Positions 3,770 through 13,619 of a DNA stretch of 30,666 nucleotides are shown one piece after another. How positions within the stretch are numbered: position 1 is the first letter of the stretch; every line of letters starts with the position of its first letter. Source of the DNA: a virus; the IMG/VR virus record IMGVR_UViG_3300028315_000509, positions 1 to 30,666 of that record; one strand, given 5' to 3'. The translations under genes and the position numbers were made by a program. The notes under the pieces are model-generated. The model worked only from the letters and a program-made list of their open reading frames with translations, ran no database searches and was not told where the DNA came from.

Positions 3770-3806
3770 TTAGACAAAGGCTTGGTTATTATGTTAAAAT
3801 GCCACC
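3770..3806 (+). promoter_or_regulatory. Possible leaderless promoter
   Basis: TAAAAT at 3795-3800 lies 6 nt before the ATG at 3807, and no Shine-Dalgarno is present. A weak -35-like TTAGAC sits at 3770-3775 with 19-nt spacing. This spacing would put the transcription start at or next to the ATG. The 47-nt gap before 3807 is one of the few intergenic spaces in the window, which fits an operon start. Confidence 0.4.
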
Positions 3807-4214
3807 ATGTTCACGAACGGCCGTTCTACCAGCGCCCCCGGCGCATTCATTCGGACCAGCGACAAGAGACGCCAGAATGTCTGGCTGCACGTCTTTGGCA
3901 CTGATACGCTGCCGGTGCTGGCCAGCAAACCACGCTGGCAGGCGATTCAGGGCAAGACCTTCGACATGTTGGCCTATGACCTGGCGATGGGTGAGCTGAC
4001 ACCTGCTCAGCGTGCGCGGTTTGCCGGGTATCTGTCGCGTAAGTATCGGATGGAGTATGCAGCGATATTGGCGGAGTTGGAAACGGCCGTTTCCTGGCCG
4101 ATCAAGTCGACGTTTGATGTGAAAGTTGTCGAGCCAGCGGAGGAAACAAGTCCGCTGGCTTCTTTGTTGCGGCGGATTGGGAGGAAACGGCCGTTGCTGA
4201 GGTTGGCGACATGA
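3807..4214 (+). CDS. Hypothetical protein, 135 aa
   Basis: I do not recognise this protein. It begins MFTNGRSTSAPGAF, where NGR is read from a palindrome copy at 3817. It then shows a beta-rich part (NVWLHVFGTDTLPVL), a helix with MGELTPAQRARFAGYLSRKYRMEYA, and a variable C terminus that contains two more palindrome-derived patches (ETAVS and KRPLL). The LTPAQRARFAGYL pattern resembles a small helical module seen in other phage hypothetical proteins. The start has no ribosome-binding site but a -10-like box at the right distance for leaderless translation. It overlaps the next gene by 4 nt. Confidence 0.58.
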   Translation: MFTNGRSTSAPGAFIRTSDKRRQNVWLHVFGTDTLPVLASKPRWQAIQGKTFDMLAYDLAMGELTPAQRARFAGYLSRKYRMEYAAILAELETAVSWPIKSTFDVKVVEPAEETSPLASLLRRIGRKRPLLRLAT

Positions 4215-4673: not shown

Positions 4674-5297
4674 ATGGATTCACCACTGGAAAAGCCCCCA
4701 GGACGTAAGGTAGTTAAACCAAAGCTGCGCGGCATGCAGAAAGATTGGACCCTGTACTATCTAGCCGACCCCCGCCGTAACGCCACCGAAGCCGCCCGCA
4801 AAGCTGGCTACAAAAACCCCGAACAATCCGGCTGGGAAAACCGGCATAATCCCAAAATTCAAGAATACATCCGCGAACACTTTCTCGACCGTCACATGAT
4901 GGCTGAAGAAGTGACCGCCCGAATTTCCGAAATTGCCTCCGCTCCTTATGCTGCTTACCTGAAGCTTGACCCAGAAACCCGCGAATTGGCTGTGGATTTA
5001 GAGCGGCTGTTAGCCGATGGTCTGGGCCACCTTATTAAAGGCATCAATTACGTTCGGACCGGCCAGGATACGGCCGTTCAGGTTGTAGAGTTCTTCGATG
5101 CCTACAAAGCGCAGGTGGATATGGGACGGATCCATGGGCTATTTGGTGTTAAGGGCACCGAGGACGATCCCGTCCACAGCGTCGGCATGACCCTGGAAGA
5201 GTGGCGGGCTGAGCGTAACAAACGACACCAGCAGGCAGCGGAAACGGCCGCTCTCTTCGACGACGACACGGACGCCGATGTGGACACCGAAGACTGA
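4674..5297 (+). CDS. terS: Terminase small subunit
   Basis: The 207-residue product matches the DNA-recognition subunit of a phage packaging motor. An N-terminal helix-turn-helix covers about residues 20-65 (MQKDWTLYYLADPRRNATEAARKAGY, then a second helix NPKIQEYIREH), as in terminase_2-type small subunits, where NATEAARKAGY is the usual HTH core. A helical oligomerisation region follows, and an acidic C-terminal tail (DDDTDADVDTED) probably contacts the large subunit. It lies immediately upstream of the large terminase gene and overlaps it by 20 nt. It would form a ring that binds the pac or cos site and loads the large subunit. Confidence 0.88.
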   Translation: MDSPLEKPPGRKVVKPKLRGMQKDWTLYYLADPRRNATEAARKAGYKNPEQSGWENRHNPKIQEYIREHFLDRHMMAEEVTARISEIASAPYAAYLKLDPETRELAVDLERLLADGLGHLIKGINYVRTGQDTAVQVVEFFDAYKAQVDMGRIHGLFGVKGTEDDPVHSVGMTLEEWRAERNKRHQQAAETAALFDDDTDADVDTED

Positions 5298-6756
5298 GCG
5301 CTGCGCCTTCCTGGTAGACAACCTGGACTTGCCAGAAGCGGCCCAATTCGAGGGCGCACGCTGGGAACATTTCCAGTTAGCACATTTACAAGACGACGCT
5401 ACATTCCGCACCGAAGTCAAAAGTCGTCAAATAGCATGGTCTTTTTTAAGCGCAGCTGAAGCCGTAGCCGATGGCATCTTGACCGGAGCGAGTAGCGTCT
5501 TTGTTTCCATCAACCTCGACGAAGCCAAAGAGAAAATACGCTACGCCCACAATGTGCGCCACGCCCTGCCCCGCTCGATGCGCCCCAAACTCATCACCGA
5601 TAATAAGCAGGAAATCGAATTCGATAACGGTGCCCGGCTTATCTCCCTACCCTCGACGGCCCCGCGTGGTAAGGCCCAGATGAATGTCTACCTGGACGAA
5701 TTCGCCCACGTGCGCGATGACAAGGTGATTTACACCGCCGCCCTGCCCATGATGACCAAAGGCGACCGGAGGCTACGCATGGCCAGCAGCCCGATGGGTG
5801 GCAGCGGCCGTTTCTGGGAAGTCTACACTCAGTCATTACAGCCGTTTCCAGGCTACCGGCGCAAGGCGACGCCCTGGTGGGAAGTACAGGCGTTTTGTCG
5901 CAATGTGAAAGCAGCCAGGCGCATGGCCCCCAGCATGACCACCTTTGAACGGGTGGAGATGTTTGGCAATGACCGCATTAAGGCGCTGTACGCCAACATG
6001 CCGGAAGAGGATTTCCAGCAGGAATACGAATGCAAATTCGTAGATGAATCCACCGCCTGGATCACCTGGGACGAAATCAAAGCCAACCAGGCAGCGCACA
6101 GCGGCCCGGTCATTATGGCCGAAGCCAAAGACAGCGTCATCGACCGTGCGCTGGAAGCCATTGGCGAGCTGGCCGACCTGGTGGCCAAAAACGCGGTGGA
6201 ACTGGTCTTTGCGGCTGGCTACGACGTCGGCCGCACACGCAACACGTCCGAGCTGTACGTGGTGGGGGTCTCGACGCTAAAGAGTTACCCGGTCCGGCTG
6301 GCCATCAGCCTGGACAACTGCGATTTTGACAGCCAGGTTGCTGTTCTGACGGCAGCCCTGACCAAACTGCCGCTCATGGGTCTACTTATCGACCGCAACG
6401 GCATCGGCCGCAACCTGGCCGAGACAATGGAGCGGCTTTTCCCTGGTAAAGCGGCCGGGGTGGACTTTACCAACCAGAGCAAGGCGCTCTGGGCTACGGA
6501 TGGCAAAATGCTTTTCCAGCAGCGCCGGGCACCGATTCCGACCGACAAGGATCTGGCCTACCAGATTCACAGCATCAAGCGGAAAGTGACGGCCGCTAAG
6601 AACCTGGTCTTTGACACGGAACGCAACGAAAAACACCATGCTGATCGATTTTGGGCCTTAATGCTGGCTCATTCGGTGGCAATAATGATCGAGACACCGG
6701 CATTAGATGAGGGTGTCGTTATCGACGAGGAAGCCGTCACGATTTCACCATATTAG
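5278..6756 (+). CDS. terL: Terminase large subunit (ATPase and nuclease)
   Basis: The 492-residue product is the packaging motor and DNA-cutting enzyme. The ATPase part has a degenerate Walker A (KSRQIAWS, residues 48-55, without the usual GK-S/T), Walker B MNVYLDE (135-141, catalytic Glu 141) and a coupling motif MASSPMG (168-174). The RNase H-like nuclease half shows the expected acidic residues in AGYDVGR (D316), LIDRNGIG (D372) and HHADRFWALMLA (D456). Length and order fit the family. The ATG is inside the small-subunit gene, so translation is probably coupled. No perfect ACGGCCGT occurs in the gene, only imperfect forms near 5803 and 6592. It ends in ISPY. Confidence 0.95.
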   Translation: MWTPKTERCAFLVDNLDLPEAAQFEGARWEHFQLAHLQDDATFRTEVKSRQIAWSFLSAAEAVADGILTGASSVFVSINLDEAKEKIRYAHNVRHALPRSMRPKLITDNKQEIEFDNGARLISLPSTAPRGKAQMNVYLDEFAHVRDDKVIYTAALPMMTKGDRRLRMASSPMGGSGRFWEVYTQSLQPFPGYRRKATPWWEVQAFCRNVKAARRMAPSMTTFERVEMFGNDRIKALYANMPEEDFQQEYECKFVDESTAWITWDEIKANQAAHSGPVIMAEAKDSVIDRALEAIGELADLVAKNAVELVFAAGYDVGRTRNTSELYVVGVSTLKSYPVRLAISLDNCDFDSQVAVLTAALTKLPLMGLLIDRNGIGRNLAETMERLFPGKAAGVDFTNQSKALWATDGKMLFQQRRAPIPTDKDLAYQIHSIKRKVTAAKNLVFDTERNEKHHADRFWALMLAHSVAIMIETPALDEGVVIDEEAVTISPY

Positions 6757-6766
6757 CGAGGTAACT

Positions 6767-6970
6767 ATGGCAACAATAAGCGAATATCCAGAGGATGACG
6801 CAAACCAATTCACCGACGGCGGCGAATGGGAAGAGAGCGATGTTGTCTGCGAACATTGCGGACGCCTTATGTGGCAAGCCGAGTGGTGGGATGATCCACC
6901 AGAAATCGGCGGTGCGAATATTGGTTGGCGGTACAAATGCGGCACATGTGGCCACTATGAGGAAAGATAA
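6767..6970 (+). CDS. Small zinc-ribbon protein between terminase and portal
   Basis: This 67-residue protein has C28-E-H-C31 and C58-G-T-C61, a zinc ribbon separated by a Trp-rich acidic loop. The open frame extends into the terminase gene, but GAGG before the ATG at 6767 and the sensible N terminus set this start. Its first 19 bases, ATGGCAACAATAAGCGAAT, are identical to the first 19 bases of the portal gene at 6971, so both proteins start MATISE. This suggests that the ORF was inserted by recombination at, or duplication of, the portal translation start. Role unknown. Zinc-ribbon ORFs are not a standard part of the terminase-portal junction. Confidence 0.75.
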   Translation: MATISEYPEDDANQFTDGGEWEESDVVCEHCGRLMWQAEWWDDPPEIGGANIGWRYKCGTCGHYEER

Positions 6971-8683
6971 ATGGCAACAATAAGCGAATTAACCGAATCC
7001 ATAGCCGACCGGCTCACCGGCGGCAAACTGAGCAACCTACAGGAAACGGCCGTTTCCCAATCCAACCAACTGTGGCAGCTCACCGAATCCTTGCAACGCC
7101 TGGAGCAGTTGCTCTACAGCTCCGAATGGCGGATGCTGTCCATGCAGGCCGATCAGGAGTTTACCCGCGCTGGCTTAAGGCAAATCACAGAGCTGGCCCG
7201 CATCATGCGCCTAAAAAATCCAGTCATTAAGCGCGGGGTTAAAATCCAGCGCCTGTACGTTTGGGCACAAGGCGTCAACATTTCGGCCACCGAGCCAGAA
7301 ATTAACGACGTGGTCCAGGCATTCATCGACGATGAACGTAACAAAGCGGAGCTGAGCAGCCACCAGGCGCGGGGCGAGCGGGAAGTGGATTTGCAGCAGG
7401 ACGGCAACGTGTTTTTCCGCTTTCACGTCAACCAGGTAAACGGCCGTATCCGCATCAGCACCATTGACCCGCAGGAAATAGACGACATCATCTGCAACCC
7501 GGAGGATAAGCGGGAGCCCTGGTTCTACAAGCGCACCTGGGTACAGCAATCGCTCGACGGCGGCACCAAGCAGCACGCTGCCTATTACCCTGATTGGCGC
7601 TTCACGCCCCGCCCCGACCTGCGCGGCCGAATCACGAATCAAATTAGCCGCAGCGGGGGAACGGGCGTTCCTGTCGAATGGGACACGCCTATCTACCATG
7701 TAGCCACTAACAAAATGGGTCGCTGGGGCGTGCCTGAATTTTACGCGGCAAACGATTGGGCGCTGGCTTACAAATCATTCCTGGAGCAGCTGGCGAGCGT
7801 GTGGCAGGCGCTGGCCCGTTGGGCTGCCAAGCTCACCACCAAAGGCGGCAAGCGAGGCGTGGCAGCGGCTAAAGCCAAACTGAACACGACGCTGGCCGGC
7901 GGTGGCGATGAAACCAACCCACCGCCGGTGACAGGCAGCACGTTTATTGCCTCCGAGGGCGTAGACCTGCAACCGTTCCGCACCGCCGGGGCTACCATGA
8001 GCGCCGAAGACGGCCGTCGGTTGCTGCTCATGTCGATTATGGATTTTGGCTTTCCTGAAACCTTTTTTGGAGACGCCAGCGTAGGTAGCCTGGCCACGGC
8101 GAAATCATTGGACCGGCCGACAGAGCTGCAAATTATGGACCGCCAGACGCTGTGGCGGGATGTTCATAAGGACATTATCGGTTACGCGCTGTTGTGGGCA
8201 GTGAAAGCGCCGCAGGGGATGTTGCGCGGCTTAGGGCGGGTCATGCCAGAAAAAGACGGCGAACAGGTACGCGAGGTGCTGACCTGGAATGATGACATTG
8301 ACTCGACGGTTAACATCGAATTCCCGTCAATCATCCAGCACGACACTAAGGAAGCCATCAGCGCGATCATCGATGCGCAGACGCTGGCCGGTCGCTCTGA
8401 GGGTACAGGCATTCCGCTGGAAACGGCCGTTCGCCGGTTACTTTCCGAATTAGGCATCAACGACATCGACGCCGTGATGGACATCTGGCAGACAGCACAA
8501 GAGGAGCGCCAGGCGCGGGCTGAGGAGATGGCGGCGCGGCTAAACAATGCCCCTGCTACGGCCGGTAGCGATGAGGAAAACGACGAAGAAGCCACAGAGG
8601 CGATTTGGCAACGGCAAGTAACGGCCGTTTCTGATTTGCTGGTGGATATTCGGGAGGCGATGGGGGCAAATGGCCACAGCTGA
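6971..8683 (+). CDS. Portal protein
   Basis: This 570-residue protein forms the dodecameric portal at one capsid vertex, through which DNA enters and to which the connector binds. The diagnostic part is the C-terminal third, with MDFGFPETFFGDASVG followed by LATAKSLDRPTELQIMDRQ, a combination typical of phage portals of this class. The N-terminal half contains the clip and wing region, including WYKRTWV-like and DPQEIDDII stretches. Position directly after the terminase also supports the call. It has no strong ribosome-binding site of its own (GAGGAAAGATAA just before the ATG). It overlaps the minor head protein gene by 14 nt. Palindrome copies at 7046, 7440, 8010, 8423 and 8621 are tolerated in the gene. 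Confidence 0.93.
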   Translation: MATISELTESIADRLTGGKLSNLQETAVSQSNQLWQLTESLQRLEQLLYSSEWRMLSMQADQEFTRAGLRQITELARIMRLKNPVIKRGVKIQRLYVWAQGVNISATEPEINDVVQAFIDDERNKAELSSHQARGEREVDLQQDGNVFFRFHVNQVNGRIRISTIDPQEIDDIICNPEDKREPWFYKRTWVQQSLDGGTKQHAAYYPDWRFTPRPDLRGRITNQISRSGGTGVPVEWDTPIYHVATNKMGRWGVPEFYAANDWALAYKSFLEQLASVWQALARWAAKLTTKGGKRGVAAAKAKLNTTLAGGGDETNPPPVTGSTFIASEGVDLQPFRTAGATMSAEDGRRLLLMSIMDFGFPETFFGDASVGSLATAKSLDRPTELQIMDRQTLWRDVHKDIIGYALLWAVKAPQGMLRGLGRVMPEKDGEQVREVLTWNDDIDSTVNIEFPSIIQHDTKEAISAIIDAQTLAGRSEGTGIPLETAVRRLLSELGINDIDAVMDIWQTAQEERQARAEEMAARLNNAPATAGSDEENDEEATEAIWQRQVTAVSDLLVDIREAMGANGHS

Positions 8684-9530
8684 CCTAATCGCTCCCCTCA
8701 CTCGATTCCTGGAAGCAAGCCAGGCCATTCGCCGCGACCGGCTGGTGGCCCGGCGGCGCAAGGGGCTGGAAACGGCAGTTTCTGCCATGTTCCAAAAGCA
8801 GAGCCGGTTGTTTCTGCGCAGCCTGGGCCAGCTCAAGGGCGAGTTTGACAAAAACGCGCAAAAGGTAAATGAATCGGGAAACGACCGTTTGCACGAAGCC
8901 GTTTCCCCCGCCGACTGGCTGCCCTTCTGGGACGCGGCGGCGCGGGATGCCAAACTCGACCTACAAGACCCCCTACAAGCCGCCATCCTGGATATGCTCA
9001 TTCTGGGCGGCGGCGATCTCATCAAGGGGCTGGGCATTGCCGCTGATGAGCAAGATGAGCTGGGCGTATCCTGGAACCTAAAGAATCCGCGTGCCGTGGC
9101 CTACGCCAAACAACACGCGGCCGAACAGGTGACAAAAATCAACGACACAACACGATTCTACCTCAACAGCATGATCAGCCAGGCTACGGACGAGGGTTGG
9201 AGCTATGACCGTTTGAGCCGGGCTATTGGCGACCGCTTCACCAAGTTTGCCACCGGCGGGCCGAATCCGAGATCGCGGCGCGTGGCGGTGTTTGAGCTAG
9301 GGGATGCTTACGAAGCTGGCAATGAGGTGATGGCGGGCGAGTTGAAAGCCGCCGGGCTAGAAATTGAGAAAAAGTGGCTGACGGTCGGTGATGACAATGT
9401 ACGGCCGTCTCATCGAGCGAACCAGGCGCAGGGCTACATCCCCTTTGATGATGATTTCAGCAGCGGTGATAGCAGGCCGCCGTCCGATCCGGGTTGCAGA
9501 TGCACGACTTTACATAGACGCAAAAAATGA
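8670..9530 (+). CDS. Minor head morphogenesis protein (Mu F-like)
   Basis: The 286-residue product matches the Mu F/SPP1 gp7-like minor head proteins that associate with the portal during prohead assembly. The C terminus carries the family hallmark: KKWLTVGDDNVRPSHRAN followed by GYIPFDDDF and RPPSDPGCRCT, the conserved W-x-x-x-x-D...R-x-x-H...P-x-x-P-x-C-R-C pattern. The N-terminal half is helical and may bind the portal or scaffold. Position after the portal fits. It overlaps the portal by 14 nt and the HTH gene by 4 nt (ATGA). Confidence 0.9.
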   Translation: MATADLIAPLTRFLEASQAIRRDRLVARRRKGLETAVSAMFQKQSRLFLRSLGQLKGEFDKNAQKVNESGNDRLHEAVSPADWLPFWDAAARDAKLDLQDPLQAAILDMLILGGGDLIKGLGIAADEQDELGVSWNLKNPRAVAYAKQHAAEQVTKINDTTRFYLNSMISQATDEGWSYDRLSRAIGDRFTKFATGGPNPRSRRVAVFELGDAYEAGNEVMAGELKAAGLEIEKKWLTVGDDNVRPSHRANQAQGYIPFDDDFSSGDSRPPSDPGCRCTTLHRRKK

Positions 9531-9769: not shown

Positions 9770-9967
9770 ATGAGGATTTGCATAAGTCACAAGGCTGTCG
9801 TTTGGTTATGGGCATTCATTTGGCGACGCCGGTTAGATAAAGATGAAAAGGTCGTTTTTGTTCGCGGCTGGCGCAGCGCCTCAGTGGATCGTCCATCTGG
9901 ACGACATTACATCACTTTTATTTTTGATTGGGAGTGGGAACTTAAGAAGCGGTTCAATCTGCTGTAA
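9770..9967 (+). CDS. Small hypothetical protein, 65 aa
   Basis: I do not recognise this ORF. It follows the HTH gene by 12 nt with AAAGG about 8 nt before the ATG. The peptide has an aromatic N-terminal segment (AVVWLWAFIWRRR, residues 9-21) that could touch membrane, and a basic-aromatic C-terminal part (HYITFIFDWEWELKK). It is more AT-rich than its neighbours and carries no palindrome copy. It is followed by a 48-nt gap with a promoter-like box. It could be an acquired small gene or a non-functional ORF. Confidence 0.42.
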   Translation: MRICISHKAVVWLWAFIWRRRLDKDEKVVFVRGWRSASVDRPSGRHYITFIFDWEWELKKRFNLL

Positions 9968-10003
9968 AACCCAAAACGACATACCCCCGTCGCACACCTG
10001 TGC

Positions 10004-10015
10004 TATTTTGGCCGT
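10004..10015 (+). promoter_or_regulatory. Possible leaderless promoter before protease gene
   Basis: TATTTT at 10004-10009 stands 6 nt before the ATG at 10016, and no Shine-Dalgarno is present. No good -35 is seen at 17-nt spacing. This is the same geometry as at 3795-3807 and 4663-4674. The 48-nt intergenic gap here separates the packaging block from the capsid block, which would give the capsid genes a separate transcription start. Confidence 0.4.
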
Positions 10016-11404
10016 ATGGCCGAAAAACTATCCGAATTTGTTCCTCTCTCCGAGCGTGCCGTCCGGCGTGATGGCACTATCAGCCTGAAACTAATCCAGC
10101 CTGGCTGGGGCAGCAGCGGCTATTACCCCCGCAACGTTTTAGAGCGCGACATCCCCAAAGTTTTCCCCGCCGGTACCAAAATGTACTGGAACCATGCCAC
10201 CCCTACCGAAGAAATGGAGCGGCCCGAAGGCGACCTGCGCAATCTGGCGGCCGTGACCGTTTCTGACCCCATTTGGTTGGATGGCGGTCCCAATGGGCCG
10301 GGCATGTATGCGGAAGCACGGCCGTTCACCGGCTATGCTGAAACGATTGACGAAATCGGGTCACATATTGGCGTCAGCATTCGTGGCATGGGGCAGCATA
10401 CAACCGGGGAGGCGGAGGGTAAATCCGGCCGTATTATCCAAGAGATTGTGGCTGGCAAATCGGTCGATTTTGTGACCGAGCCAGGCGCAGGCGGGGCGGT
10501 TGTCTCTATTTTTGAATCTGCCCCCAACGCTGGCAAGCTGCCAGACCCCACGATCCCCAAAGACGTGGAAACCTTCCTGGCCGAAGCTGGCCGGGTTCTC
10601 TCCAAGGCCAATGAAACCAAGCTGAAAGCGGCCCTGGAGCAGCTAACGGCCGTTTTGTCGCTGCTGGACAGTGAAGCAACCAGCGAATCATTCAAGAAGC
10701 TGGCCGAAGCCCGCAATATTGGCGAGTGGTTGGAGAGTCGCCTACACCTCCATCTAACAATGGTTGGTGATGAAATGTATGGAGACGGCCGTGTGAGCCG
10801 GGAAGAGCGTAAGGCCATGAGTAGCGCCATCGGTGCCGCCCTAGATGCCTACCGTGCCGACCTGATGAGCAACGCGCCGCAATTATTCAAACGTGATACG
10901 TGGGCCAAAAGCCCGGAAAGTGACGACATCGCCGCAATGGGCGGCATGATGCAAGAATCGGAGGACGCTATGAGCGAACAAGAATTACAAGAGGCCCAAG
11001 CTGCGCTTAAAACTGCGAATGAGGCTAAAACCGCCGCCGAAACCGAGCTGGCCAAAACACGCGAGCAGCTGCTTTTCCGCGAGGCGGGCGATTTTGTGGC
11101 CGCGCAGCTGGTGGAAGCCGAGCTGCCCGACGTGACAAAACAACGCCTGGCCAAAAGCCTGACGGCGAATCCGCCGGTGAAGGAAGGTGCCTTAGACAAG
11201 GAAACCTTTAAGGCCCGCGTGGAAACGGCCGTTACCGAGGCCCAGACCGAAATCGCCACGTTGTTGGGCAAAACCGGCAAAGTCACTGGCAACGGTGAAA
11301 GCGCCAACGGTGGCGGCGGCGAGCAGCCCACCATCGAGGCGGCCCGGACGCGGCTTAATGAATCATTAGCCACAATGGGCTACGCCAATGGAGGTAACAG
11401 CTAA
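10016..11404 (+). CDS. Prohead protease fused to scaffold domain
   Basis: The 462-residue product combines a capsid-maturation serine protease with a C-terminal scaffold. The protease part (about residues 1-170) carries MYWNHATPTEEMERPEGDL (H60) and HIGVSIRGMG (S121), the His and Ser motifs of the herpesvirus-assemblin-like phage proteases. The C-terminal 145 residues form an Ala/Glu/Lys coiled coil (EAQAALKTANEAKTAAETE) followed by a Gly-rich linker, typical of phage scaffolds. It would guide capsid assembly, then cut itself and the scaffold. It has no ribosome-binding site but a -10-like box 6 nt upstream. An internal start (10970) may produce the scaffold alone. It overlaps the decoration gene at TAATG. 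Confidence 0.88.
   Translation: MAEKLSEFVPLSERAVRRDGTISLKLIQPGWGSSGYYPRNVLERDIPKVFPAGTKMYWNHATPTEEMERPEGDLRNLAAVTVSDPIWLDGGPNGPGMYAEARPFTGYAETIDEIGSHIGVSIRGMGQHTTGEAEGKSGRIIQEIVAGKSVDFVTEPGAGGAVVSIFESAPNAGKLPDPTIPKDVETFLAEAGRVLSKANETKLKAALEQLTAVLSLLDSEATSESFKKLAEARNIGEWLESRLHLHLTMVGDEMYGDGRVSREERKAMSSAIGAALDAYRADLMSNAPQLFKRDTWAKSPESDDIAAMGGMMQESEDAMSEQELQEAQAALKTANEAKTAAETELAKTREQLLFREAGDFVAAQLVEAELPDVTKQRLAKSLTANPPVKEGALDKETFKARVETAVTEAQTEIATLLGKTGKVTGNGESANGGGGEQPTIEAARTRLNESLATMGYANGGNS
10970..11404 (+). CDS. Internal in-frame scaffold protein (nested gene)
   Basis: Inside the protease-scaffold gene, an ATG at 10970 begins MSEQELQEAQ, exactly where the coiled-coil scaffold domain starts (residue 319 of the full product). 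GGAGG at 10960-10964 lies 5 nt before it, which is a better ribosome-binding site than the full-length gene has. Translation from here would give a 144-residue scaffold lacking protease, the same arrangement as lambda C and Nu3 (established). The existence of the separate protein is inference. Confidence 0.6.
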   Translation: MSEQELQEAQAALKTANEAKTAAETELAKTREQLLFREAGDFVAAQLVEAELPDVTKQRLAKSLTANPPVKEGALDKETFKARVETAVTEAQTEIATLLGKTGKVTGNGESANGGGGEQPTIEAARTRLNESLATMGYANGGNS

Positions 11405-12378
11405 TGGCAACTAATTTAGTGCAAAACGATGGGGAGATTCTGGCCAATATTGCCGCATCTGCCCCAGCCACCCCCACCAGCGGCTCCCCCGTTCGGTACG
11501 GGGCACTGACCGGTATCGCTCTCACCGATGAAGGCGAGGGCGGCAATGATTCCGGCAAGATCACAATGGACGGCGGCTACCGCATTTGGGATTTGGTGGT
11601 CCACGACAGCGCGGGCGGCGGCATCGCTGTCGGCGATGCCATTTTCTTCGATGACACCGCGACCGGTTCGCCCACAACCAACCTGAATACCGACAGCGCC
11701 AACGGCTATTTCTTTGGCTTTGCCCTGGAAGCGATTAGCGCAGGCAATCAGGACACGATCAACGTCCTGCATGTGCCTAGCCCTGGCGCGGGCACGCTGG
11801 CCAACGACTCAGTGACGGCCGCCAAGATTGCGGCCGGTGCGGTCGGTGTCTCCGAATTAGCGGGCAACCTGAAAAAGGGAACTATTCAACTGGACATCAC
11901 CGCCTTGCGCGAAATTGCCAGTAATGACATTCAAAACCTGGCAGCACATGGCGGCTTACTGGCCTCTGACAGCGCCCCCAACCTAGCCCGCGTTAATGGC
12001 GCGACCGACAAGGCGCTACGCGTAACCTGGACGGCCGAAGCCGATACCGACGAAGCGCAGTTCCCACCCGTGGCTAAACCAGTTGACCTGGACGAAGGCA
12101 CCGACCTGACGATCCACCTGCTAATGGCGATGGAAGGCGCGACTGACACACCTACTGTTGATGTGCAGGTGTTTGACGGCCTCGGAGACACAGAAATGGG
12201 TGGCGCGACCGGCGCGGTAACGGGCACAACCATCACGGAATACACCGTCACAATCGCCAACGCTAACATCGCCGCCGCGCCTGGCTTCCTCAACATCTCA
12301 CTCGTTCCCGGCGTGCATGATACAGACGATCTCTATCTGTATGCTGCCTGGATTGAGTACACACGAGCGGAGAGCTAA
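11404..12378 (+). CDS. Capsid decoration protein (DUF2190-like) with C-terminal beta domain
   Basis: Residues 1-125 of this 324-aa protein resemble the DUF2190 capsid-decoration fold, with GSPVRYGALTGIALTDEG, then strands with DLVVHDSAGGGIAVGDAIFFD and FFGFALEAI. A short linker with VTAAKIAAGAVG (as in many phage tail- and head-fibre proteins) leads to a beta-rich C-terminal domain (about 190-324) with RVTWTAEADTDEAQFPPV and LYLYAAWIEYTRAES. It may stabilise the capsid surface and project a beta-sandwich outward. It sits between the protease/scaffold and the major capsid genes, the usual place for decoration genes, and overlaps the former at TAATG. Confidence 0.72.
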   Translation: MATNLVQNDGEILANIAASAPATPTSGSPVRYGALTGIALTDEGEGGNDSGKITMDGGYRIWDLVVHDSAGGGIAVGDAIFFDDTATGSPTTNLNTDSANGYFFGFALEAISAGNQDTINVLHVPSPGAGTLANDSVTAAKIAAGAVGVSELAGNLKKGTIQLDITALREIASNDIQNLAAHGGLLASDSAPNLARVNGATDKALRVTWTAEADTDEAQFPPVAKPVDLDEGTDLTIHLLMAMEGATDTPTVDVQVFDGLGDTEMGGATGAVTGTTITEYTVTIANANIAAAPGFLNISLVPGVHDTDDLYLYAAWIEYTRAES

Positions 12379-12380
12379 CC

Positions 12381-13619
12381 ATGACTGAAATTAAAGAAAC
12401 CTATCAACTGGAAACGGCCGAATTCCCCACCGAAGGCTACCGCTCCGTTGTTCGCGAAGCTAACGGCCGTTGGCAACAGGGCCCGGATGCGGCCTACATG
12501 AACCGCGTAGCCGCTGCTGCTGAGTTTTTGTCTGAGGCGCTAAATGGCACGATGCCCATCTGGGTCCTGAAAGAAGCCATGAAGCCTACCAGCCCCCAGG
12601 CGGTACAGATTATCCGCAGCAACTACCCGGAACTCTTCACCATGCGTGAAGCCTATTCAACCAGCGATTTCCCCTTCTTGTTGGGGGACGTGCTGGATCG
12701 CATGATGCTGATGAATTACAACAGCCTGGGCCACAACTGGCGGGCCTATTGCAAAGTTTCCCGCCCGCTGCGCGACTTCCGTACCGTTCGTCGTTTGGGC
12801 TTCAATGGGGCCGAAGGGCAGTATCAAAAAATCACCGAGCAGGAACCGCTGAAATACTCCAAGACCCTTGACGAAGACAACTACACCTACGCCCCGGATT
12901 TGTACGGGCTGGGTGTCAAACTCTCCTTCCGGGCCATCATGAATGATGACCTAGACGCCTTCGACACCATCCCCAACCGTTTGGGCAAGGGCGGACGGCG
13001 CACGGTTGAGAAGTTCGTGACGCAGCTCTTCTTTGATTCCAGCGGCCCGGACGCGACGTTTTTCAGCGCCGGAAACGGCAATCTGCTGACCAATAACCCA
13101 GATTTCGCCATTGACAGCCTGGGCACGGCGATTCAAACGCTGTTGGGCCTGACGGATGCCGACGGCGAACCGATCCTGGTTGAGGGTGTGACGCTGGTTT
13201 ATGGCCCCGGCCTGCATGTGACGGTTAACAATGTGCTGAATCAGTTGACCGTTGACGTGGCTACGGCGGGCGGTGTGACGAATCAGACCATCCGCGTGAA
13301 TAACTGGATTGTGTCGAATATCAACCCGGTCATGAATCCCTATATCCCCATCGTTTGTACCAGCAATGGGACAACGACGTGGGCGCTGTTTGCTAATCCA
13401 TCTGTGGGCCGCCCAGCTGGTGAAGTTGGCTTTCTGGCTGGCTACGACCAGCCGCGCTTGTTCCAGAAAGGCGGCAATGCTGTGGCTATTGGCGGCGGGG
13501 TTGACCAAATGGCAGGCGACTTCGAGACGATGGAACAACATTACAAGGGTGTTATCGGCTTGGGCGGCGCGGTACTTGATCCTAAATCGGCCGTGGCCAG
13601 CAACGGCAGCAACGCTTAA
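12381..13619 (+). CDS. Major capsid protein (Mu gpT-like, HK97 fold)
   Basis: The 412-residue product is the main shell protein, inferred from its place after the protease and decoration genes and from its sequence. Residues 85-215 contain YPELFTMREAYSTSDFPFLLGDVLDRMM, a region typical of Mu gpT-like and related major heads, followed by the E-loop-like segment (EQYQ-like, FNGAEGQYQKITEQEP). The ALFANPSVGRPAGEVGFLAGYDQPRLF part near 325-355 fits the P-domain end. The N terminus (residues 1-70) is helical with no clear cleavage site. It carries only one full palindrome copy (12463, reading NGR), so the bulk of the gene is nearly free of it. Confidence 0.88.
   Translation: MTEIKETYQLETAEFPTEGYRSVVREANGRWQQGPDAAYMNRVAAAAEFLSEALNGTMPIWVLKEAMKPTSPQAVQIIRSNYPELFTMREAYSTSDFPFLLGDVLDRMMLMNYNSLGHNWRAYCKVSRPLRDFRTVRRLGFNGAEGQYQKITEQEPLKYSKTLDEDNYTYAPDLYGLGVKLSFRAIMNDDLDAFDTIPNRLGKGGRRTVEKFVTQLFFDSSGPDATFFSAGNGNLLTNNPDFAIDSLGTAIQTLLGLTDADGEPILVEGVTLVYGPGLHVTVNNVLNQLTVDVATAGGVTNQTIRVNNWIVSNINPVMNPYIPIVCTSNGTTTWALFANPSVGRPAGEVGFLAGYDQPRLFQKGGNAVAIGGGVDQMAGDFETMEQHYKGVIGLGGAVLDPKSAVASNGSNA

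Follow-up and report, generated by a model that had tools for sequence, protein, structure and literature searches.

The open reading frame (ORF) at positions 10016–11404 of the window, i.e. the whole stretch of 30,666 bases from an IMG/VR virus record that was analysed here, very probably encodes two 3'-coterminal head-assembly proteins: a long protease–scaffold protein and a short scaffold protein. The short product would be initiated at an ATG codon (ATG 10970) that is located inside the gene and is preceded by a strong Shine-Dalgarno sequence, and this internal start is conserved in most of the homologues that we collected. The coordinates of the features discussed below are listed in Table 1.

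Table 1. Head-assembly genes of the window and the features identified in and around the protease–scaffold gene.
Feature	Position	Strand	Description
Terminase	5278–6756		
Portal gene	6971–8683	+	phrog_10963, E 2e-77
Mu F-like minor head protein	8670–9530	+	PF04233
Putative extended -10 (TGcTATTTT), possible leaderless promoter	10001–10009	+	TATTTT (10004–10009) at -12 to -7 of ATG 10016
Full-length protease–scaffold gene	10016–11404	+	462 aa; starts at ATG 10016
Assemblin-fold protease domain	10037–10525	+	Residues about 8–170; from predicted model and alignment
Helical accessory domain	10706–10903	+	Residues about 231–296; domain HMM E 2e-34
Internal Shine-Dalgarno sequence GGAGG	10960–10964	+	Spacer ACGCT (five bases) to ATG; kept in most homologues
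Internal start codon ATG	10970–10972	+	In frame with ATG 10016
Predicted separate scaffold	10970–11404	+	144 aa; shares 3' end with full-length gene
Cement/decoration protein gene	11404–12378	+	PF09956; start overlaps scaffold stop by one base
Major capsid protein	12381–13619	+	PF25209, E 2.5e-32

The head genes of the window are arranged in the order terminase, portal, Mu F-like protein, protease–scaffold, cement, and capsid. A small ORF (9770–9967) without a match in PHROGs lies between a helix-turn-helix gene and the protease gene, and the stretch immediately preceding the protease gene is not the same as in loci L002, L003, L019, and L097. For the capsid protein, matches were found to the C-terminal part of NF045541 (NCBIfam; a protease/capsid fusion) and to phrog_29592, which is also matched by the protease–scaffold protein of L015; as judged by sequence matches, split and fused forms of one protease/capsid module exist. 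Relatives of the protease–scaffold protein were found in Chloroflexota, Actinomycetota, Bacillota, and methanogen sequences. The window contains 57 copies of the palindrome ACGGCCGT, where base composition predicts 0.7, and 641 copies are present in 446 kb (80 contigs) of a Chloroflexota MAG (5.3 expected); the sequence resembles the highly iterated palindrome of cyanobacteria. It was also noted for L002, L003, L019, L022, and L097, and no copies are present in L009, L010, L011, L012, L013, L025, and L026; this palindrome likely marks the host of the phage clade to which the window belongs.

The original prediction had placed a GGAGG motif and an in-frame ATG opening a 144-residue product at the positions given in Table 1, and these coordinates proved to be exact. 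It had further held that the internal start possesses a better ribosome-binding site than the full-length gene, and this statement stands because the energy of the duplex with the anti-Shine-Dalgarno sequence is -9.5 at ATG 10970 compared with -1.5 at ATG 10016. The internal ATG was also said to lie exactly at the beginning of a coiled-coil scaffold; in the predicted model of the full-length protein, a long helix spanning residues 321–366 begins two residues past Met319, which agrees with this placement. RNA folding around both ATG codons yielded nothing decisive. Such a motif could in principle arise by chance, the codons of a Ser-Glu-Asp tripeptide happening to spell GGAGG ahead of a Met codon. 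In the genes of the window, strong sites are located 4–11 nt upstream of 6 of the 181 in-frame internal ATGs, as against 10 of the 43 gene starts, and in 12% of trials, protein-preserving (synonymous) codon shuffling of ORF 10016–11404 produced a site close to where the scaffold starts. Judged from the window alone, GGAGG and ATG 10970 thus stand only weakly above chance, and because this signal was suggestive at best, relatives were gathered for comparison.

The relatives comprised 16 viral-contig loci retrieved with the protein, 80 retrieved with the alignment, and 41 loci from bacterial and archaeal genomes, some of the collected loci being repeats of one contig. The sources numbered 137 (136 loci and the window), and an ORF matching the protease profile was present in 136. 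In total, 122 ORFs matched both the protease and scaffold profiles, and 15 protease-only ORFs (no match to the scaffold HMM) were excluded before counting; clustering gave 86 representatives sharing <80% identity. A strong site was defined as AGGAGG, GGAGG, or AGGAG located 4–11 nt upstream of an in-frame ATG, GTG, or TTG, and was sought from the end of the protease domain to 25 residues inside the scaffold, or in a narrow region from -20 to +12 residues around the start of the scaffold profile. As a control, codons were permuted in 300 runs in which each protein and its codon usage were kept. This control is strict because the residues encoded at the motif, often Lys-Glu or Glu-Glu, by themselves favour the motif; the 14 rows of the profile seed had already been inspected ahead of the shuffle test.

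Strong sites were identified in 74 of the 86 representatives, which are related and hence are not independent trials, compared with 38.8 ± 3.9 in the shuffles (a maximum of 50 in the 300 runs). In the narrow region, the corresponding numbers were 63 of 86 and 27.3 ± 3.6 (maximum, 38). The site is present in 109 of all 122 ORFs containing both domains and was retained in stricter representative sets, i.e. in 46 of 56, 13 of 15, and 8 of 10 representatives at 60, 50, and 45% identity, respectively. The original prediction was to be refuted if related phages sharing the domain order did not conserve the internal start; the site was found in 8 of the 10 representatives, window included, that share the order protease, helical accessory domain, and scaffold. 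In 73 representatives with an internal start, the remaining length has a median of 148 aa (quartiles, 144–153), the start codon is ATG in 53, GTG in 19, and TTG in one, and the motif occurs in either of two codon phases (64 and 9 cases). The tripeptides encoded at the motif are also variable (SED, TED, KED, KEN, QEA, and others), and such varied residues in two codon phases indicate that the bases, and not the peptide, are conserved. The sequence GGAGGACGCTATG is shared without change by the window, L002, L003, L022, and L097 and contains one different base in L019, whereas the sequence just upstream of it differs in L003, L022, and L097.

The positions of the motifs relative to start codons bear on what the site does. 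The junction region contains 125 strong Shine-Dalgarno sequences in 10,458 nt, of which 51 precede an in-frame ATG, 22 an in-frame GTG, and only one an out-of-frame ATG; the protease domain contains 130 in 41,637 nt, none preceding an in-frame ATG and seven preceding an in-frame GTG. Counted by codon, strong sites are associated with 46 of the 75 in-frame ATGs in the junction, with 0 of 218 in the protease domain, and with 4 of 163 in the rest of the scaffold. Together with the excess over the shuffled homologues, this frame bias contradicts a chance origin, which we regard as extremely improbable. The same counts led us to reject a second reading, in which the motif serves to stall the ribosome, giving the protease domain time to fold ahead of scaffold synthesis, and is not an initiation site. 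The location of the motif at a domain boundary in most relatives would suit a pause, but a pause needs no start codon, and this reading therefore seems very unlikely. Equally improbable, in our judgement, is that the short scaffold arises by proteolytic cleavage of the fusion only, internal initiation being minor. A precedent exists in herpesvirus pUL26, which is likewise cut at a release site between protease and scaffold; however, cleavage alone would leave the conserved Shine-Dalgarno sequence and start codon without a reason, and protease and scaffold would come out one to one. Internal initiation thus remains our preferred reading of the site.

Strong sites are absent from 12 of the 86 representatives. 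Among these, L026, L067, and L136 carry GGAG at a distance of 9–10 nt, and L023 carries GGAGG 13 nt before an ATG, whereas no site was detected in L016, L070, L080, and L106 even with a relaxed rule. Ten annotated phage or virus records were also inspected, and six of them (Methanoculleus virus L4768, Brevibacterium phage LuckyBarnes, Nonagon, Arthrobacter phage Kukla, MinS1, and BIM BV-113) contain a strong site with 131–167 codons remaining; at the corresponding place, Thunderclap has only GAGG, a weak site, and Yappy, Frankenweenie, and CMP1 have none. The match in Methanoculleus virus L4768 is the same as that in Blf4, and the accessible part of the Blf4 paper mentions neither a protease nor a scaffold. 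No paper describing the internal start of this protease–scaffold family was found in the openly licensed portion of PubMed Central, an absence that constitutes weak evidence. Nested in-frame scaffold starts are of a kind already known from lambda, Mu, and herpesviruses, but the family-wide conservation of the internal start appears to be new.

The protease domain was assigned by structure prediction. When folded alone with 70 sequences (the window and 69 homologues), it yielded a model with a pLDDT of 88.7 and a pTM of 0.83, and structural alignment ranked T4 gp21 (5jbl_A) first (Z 10.3, 3.0 Å, 127 residues, 20% identity), followed by the herpesvirus assemblins (varicella-zoster virus, Z 7.6; pseudorabies virus, 7.4; others, 5.2–6.8). 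The first 19 rows consist of gp21 and herpesvirus proteases, and lipid-transport MCE domains appear at 6.1 and below. The fold of the whole protein had been ambiguous, lipid-transport beta barrels ranking first and the KSHV protease reaching Z 5.2; this was settled by folding the protease domain alone. In Foldseek searches, the best match among predicted viral structures was an uncharacterized phage protein (E 2e-17), annotated capsid maturation proteases came next at E 3e-14 and weaker, and no PDB entry matched at E ≤ 0.001 (best, E 0.11; pseudorabies virus pUL26N, E 0.23 and 0.42). No S49/ClpP fold was among the structural matches listed, a listing that does not suffice to exclude that family. 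At the sequence level, residues 19–214 match phrog_15531, a head maturation protease (E 6e-26); no significant family was found in Pfam or NCBIfam for the protein of ORF 10016–11404, and profile searches against the PDB gave chance matches only (E 0.14 and worse), although relatives known by fold alone escape such searches. Residues H60, S121, and D151 are invariant in the 70-row alignment, and H60 and S121 are candidates for the catalytic His and Ser. The predicted model indicates that the protease domain has the assemblin fold, and the original prediction of a scaffold joined to an assemblin-type protease is borne out to that extent.

The C-terminal part is conserved and is located before the cement and capsid genes, and we infer from this position and from the parallels in lambda, Mu, and herpesviruses that it probably functions as a scaffold. 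Two accessory domains occur in the family, one helical and the other, as judged by eye, beta-rich; searches of Pfam gave no significant family for proteins with either of them. Among the 86 representatives, 29 have only protease and scaffold, 23 have the helical domain first, 12 have the beta domain first, 10 (including the window) have the helical domain in the middle, 9 have the beta domain in the middle, and 3 have both in the middle. The two domains switch between the N-terminus and the middle and substitute for each other in close relatives (e.g. L003, L019, L022, L115, and L118), and in near relatives of the window the helical domain is missing or replaced by another domain. In the protease tree, the window forms a clade with L019, L003, and L097 (100/97 support), in which the middle slot holds the helical domain in the window, the beta domain in L019 and L003, and nothing recognized in L097; the internal-start motif persists in near relatives across these swaps just upstream of it. 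An accessory domain after the scaffold start was not observed in any of the 86 representatives, and the short product would thus never carry one. The Sphaerisporangium locus L115 contains a 1446-codon open frame (5173–9513) in which both accessory domains occur and hundreds of additional residues separate the protease from the scaffold.

The full-length start, ATG 10016, has no Shine-Dalgarno sequence, and a TG is present one base upstream of the TATTTT that precedes it. Eleven near relatives, including the window, were read for a -10-like box, and Shine-Dalgarno sequences were sought at -16 to -5. In seven of them (the window, L002, L003, L019, L021, L022, and L097) a TANNNT box is located 12 nt ahead of an in-frame ATG, and in L025 and L026 the distance is 13 nt; all nine lack a Shine-Dalgarno sequence. 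The upstream sequences include near-copies (L002, L003, and L097; L019 and L021), so that the nine cannot be counted as independent, but they represent at least three dissimilar forms (TGcTATTTT, TAGCGT, and TGcTATNCT). L023 and L024 lack the box, and L024 has AGGAGG instead. The statement that the full-length gene has no ribosome-binding site consequently holds for the clade of the window but not for the family; for example, L004, L006, L007, L009, L010, L011, and L013 have an AGGAG or AGGAGG motif ahead of a plausible start of the full-length protein. According to one study (PMC3160421), leaderless genes are marked by a TANNNT located about 12 bp ahead of the start and were found in 4 of 12 Chloroflexi genomes, at about 5% of genes. 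In 446 kb (partly N-masked) of the Chloroflexota MAG that holds L097, TANNNT is located 11–13 nt before 20 of 260 predicted starts, compared with a background that we calculate as a mean of 3 starts per offset at 17–39 nt, an excess that is only modest, given that counts of 6 and 7 occur at offsets 35 and 36.

The missing Shine-Dalgarno sequence and the box 12–13 nt upstream suggest leaderless initiation in the clade of the window, and we lean slightly towards the full-length protein being translated there from a leaderless mRNA, for which the -10-like box (10004–10009) would serve as promoter. An alternative to this part only is that no leaderless mRNA exists and that the full-length protein is produced by rare non-Shine-Dalgarno initiation, the scaffold start alone being efficient. 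The lack of a Shine-Dalgarno sequence at 10016 is also expected in that case, TANNNT at any one offset occurs in about 1% of host starts by our own arithmetic, and several of the upstream sequences in the clade nearly copy each other; against it stand the recurrence of the box in unlike contexts, always where a Shine-Dalgarno sequence is missing, and its modest enrichment at 11–13 nt in the host MAG. This alternative has a considerable chance of being correct, albeit one somewhat below even. In addition, gene 3807–4214 has no Shine-Dalgarno sequence and has TAAAAT at -12 to -7 (upstream region, 3787–3806), and it is a second leaderless candidate.

With internal initiation at ATG 10970, head assembly may proceed as follows. 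Initiation at ATG 10016 would yield the 462-residue fusion of protease, accessory domain, and scaffold in a few copies per prohead, and initiation at ATG 10970 on GGAGG would supply the 144-residue helical scaffold more abundantly. Through the scaffold part common to both products, the protease would be brought into the prohead as the fusion co-assembles with free scaffold and capsid protein, and after assembly, the protease would digest the scaffold and itself. More tentatively, and with the balance of probability slightly against us, the protease-to-scaffold ratio could be set by two kinds of initiation, a leaderless AUG for the protease–scaffold protein and an internal Shine-Dalgarno sequence that would serve the scaffold on any transcript, whether leaderless or read through from the portal genes. 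As the accessory domains all precede the internal start, these swappable domains would be present only on the scarce protease molecules and might direct them to some partner within the prohead. Across a broad family of assemblin-type head proteases of phages, the scaffold thus appears to have its own conserved start, as in UL26/UL26.5, and a structural protein would be overlooked wherever only one 'capsid maturation protease' is annotated. The internal start also provides a simple rule for locating the scaffold and a testable idea for how the scaffold:protease ratio is set.

Several known systems share parts of this arrangement. The prohead protease gp21 of T4 is the best structural match of the protease domain of the window, and the T4 scaffold proteins are encoded by separate genes. 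The lambda protease gpC has a different, S49/ClpP-like fold. The original prediction described the window as a mirror of lambda C/Nu3; this is apt for the genetic arrangement, in which protease and scaffold are encoded by one gene, but lambda is not the closest parallel, since the protease here is an assemblin and UL26/UL26.5 of the herpesviruses is therefore closer. According to PMC8508860, lambda protease and scaffold are produced from the overlapping genes C and Nu3, and gp5 of phage MD8 is proposed to be a fusion of protease, scaffold, and capsid. In NF045541, and in MD8 gp5 as proposed, the capsid is part of a fusion, whereas the capsid protein of the window is encoded by a gene of its own that follows the cement gene. 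Nested protease/scaffold starts with Shine-Dalgarno sequences are described in PMC4378225 for Mu and for gene 27 of the Pseudomonas Mu-like phage PaMx73, which are different phages from that of the window, and a nested scaffold start has also been reported for KS10. In herpesviruses, UL26, which encodes assemblin protease and scaffold, overlaps UL26.5 in frame with an identical 3' end (PMC4498786). An assemblin-fold protease is there fused to a scaffold that is also made from an in-frame, 3'-coterminal gene, as is predicted for the window, and with this precedent, joining a nested start to an assemblin is not in itself new. The two systems differ in that the window protein contains an accessory domain, unlike UL26, and in that the short gene of herpes simplex virus is transcribed separately from a promoter of its own within UL26, as indicated by titles in the reference list of PMC4498786, whereas the short start of the window is recognized here by its ribosome-binding site.
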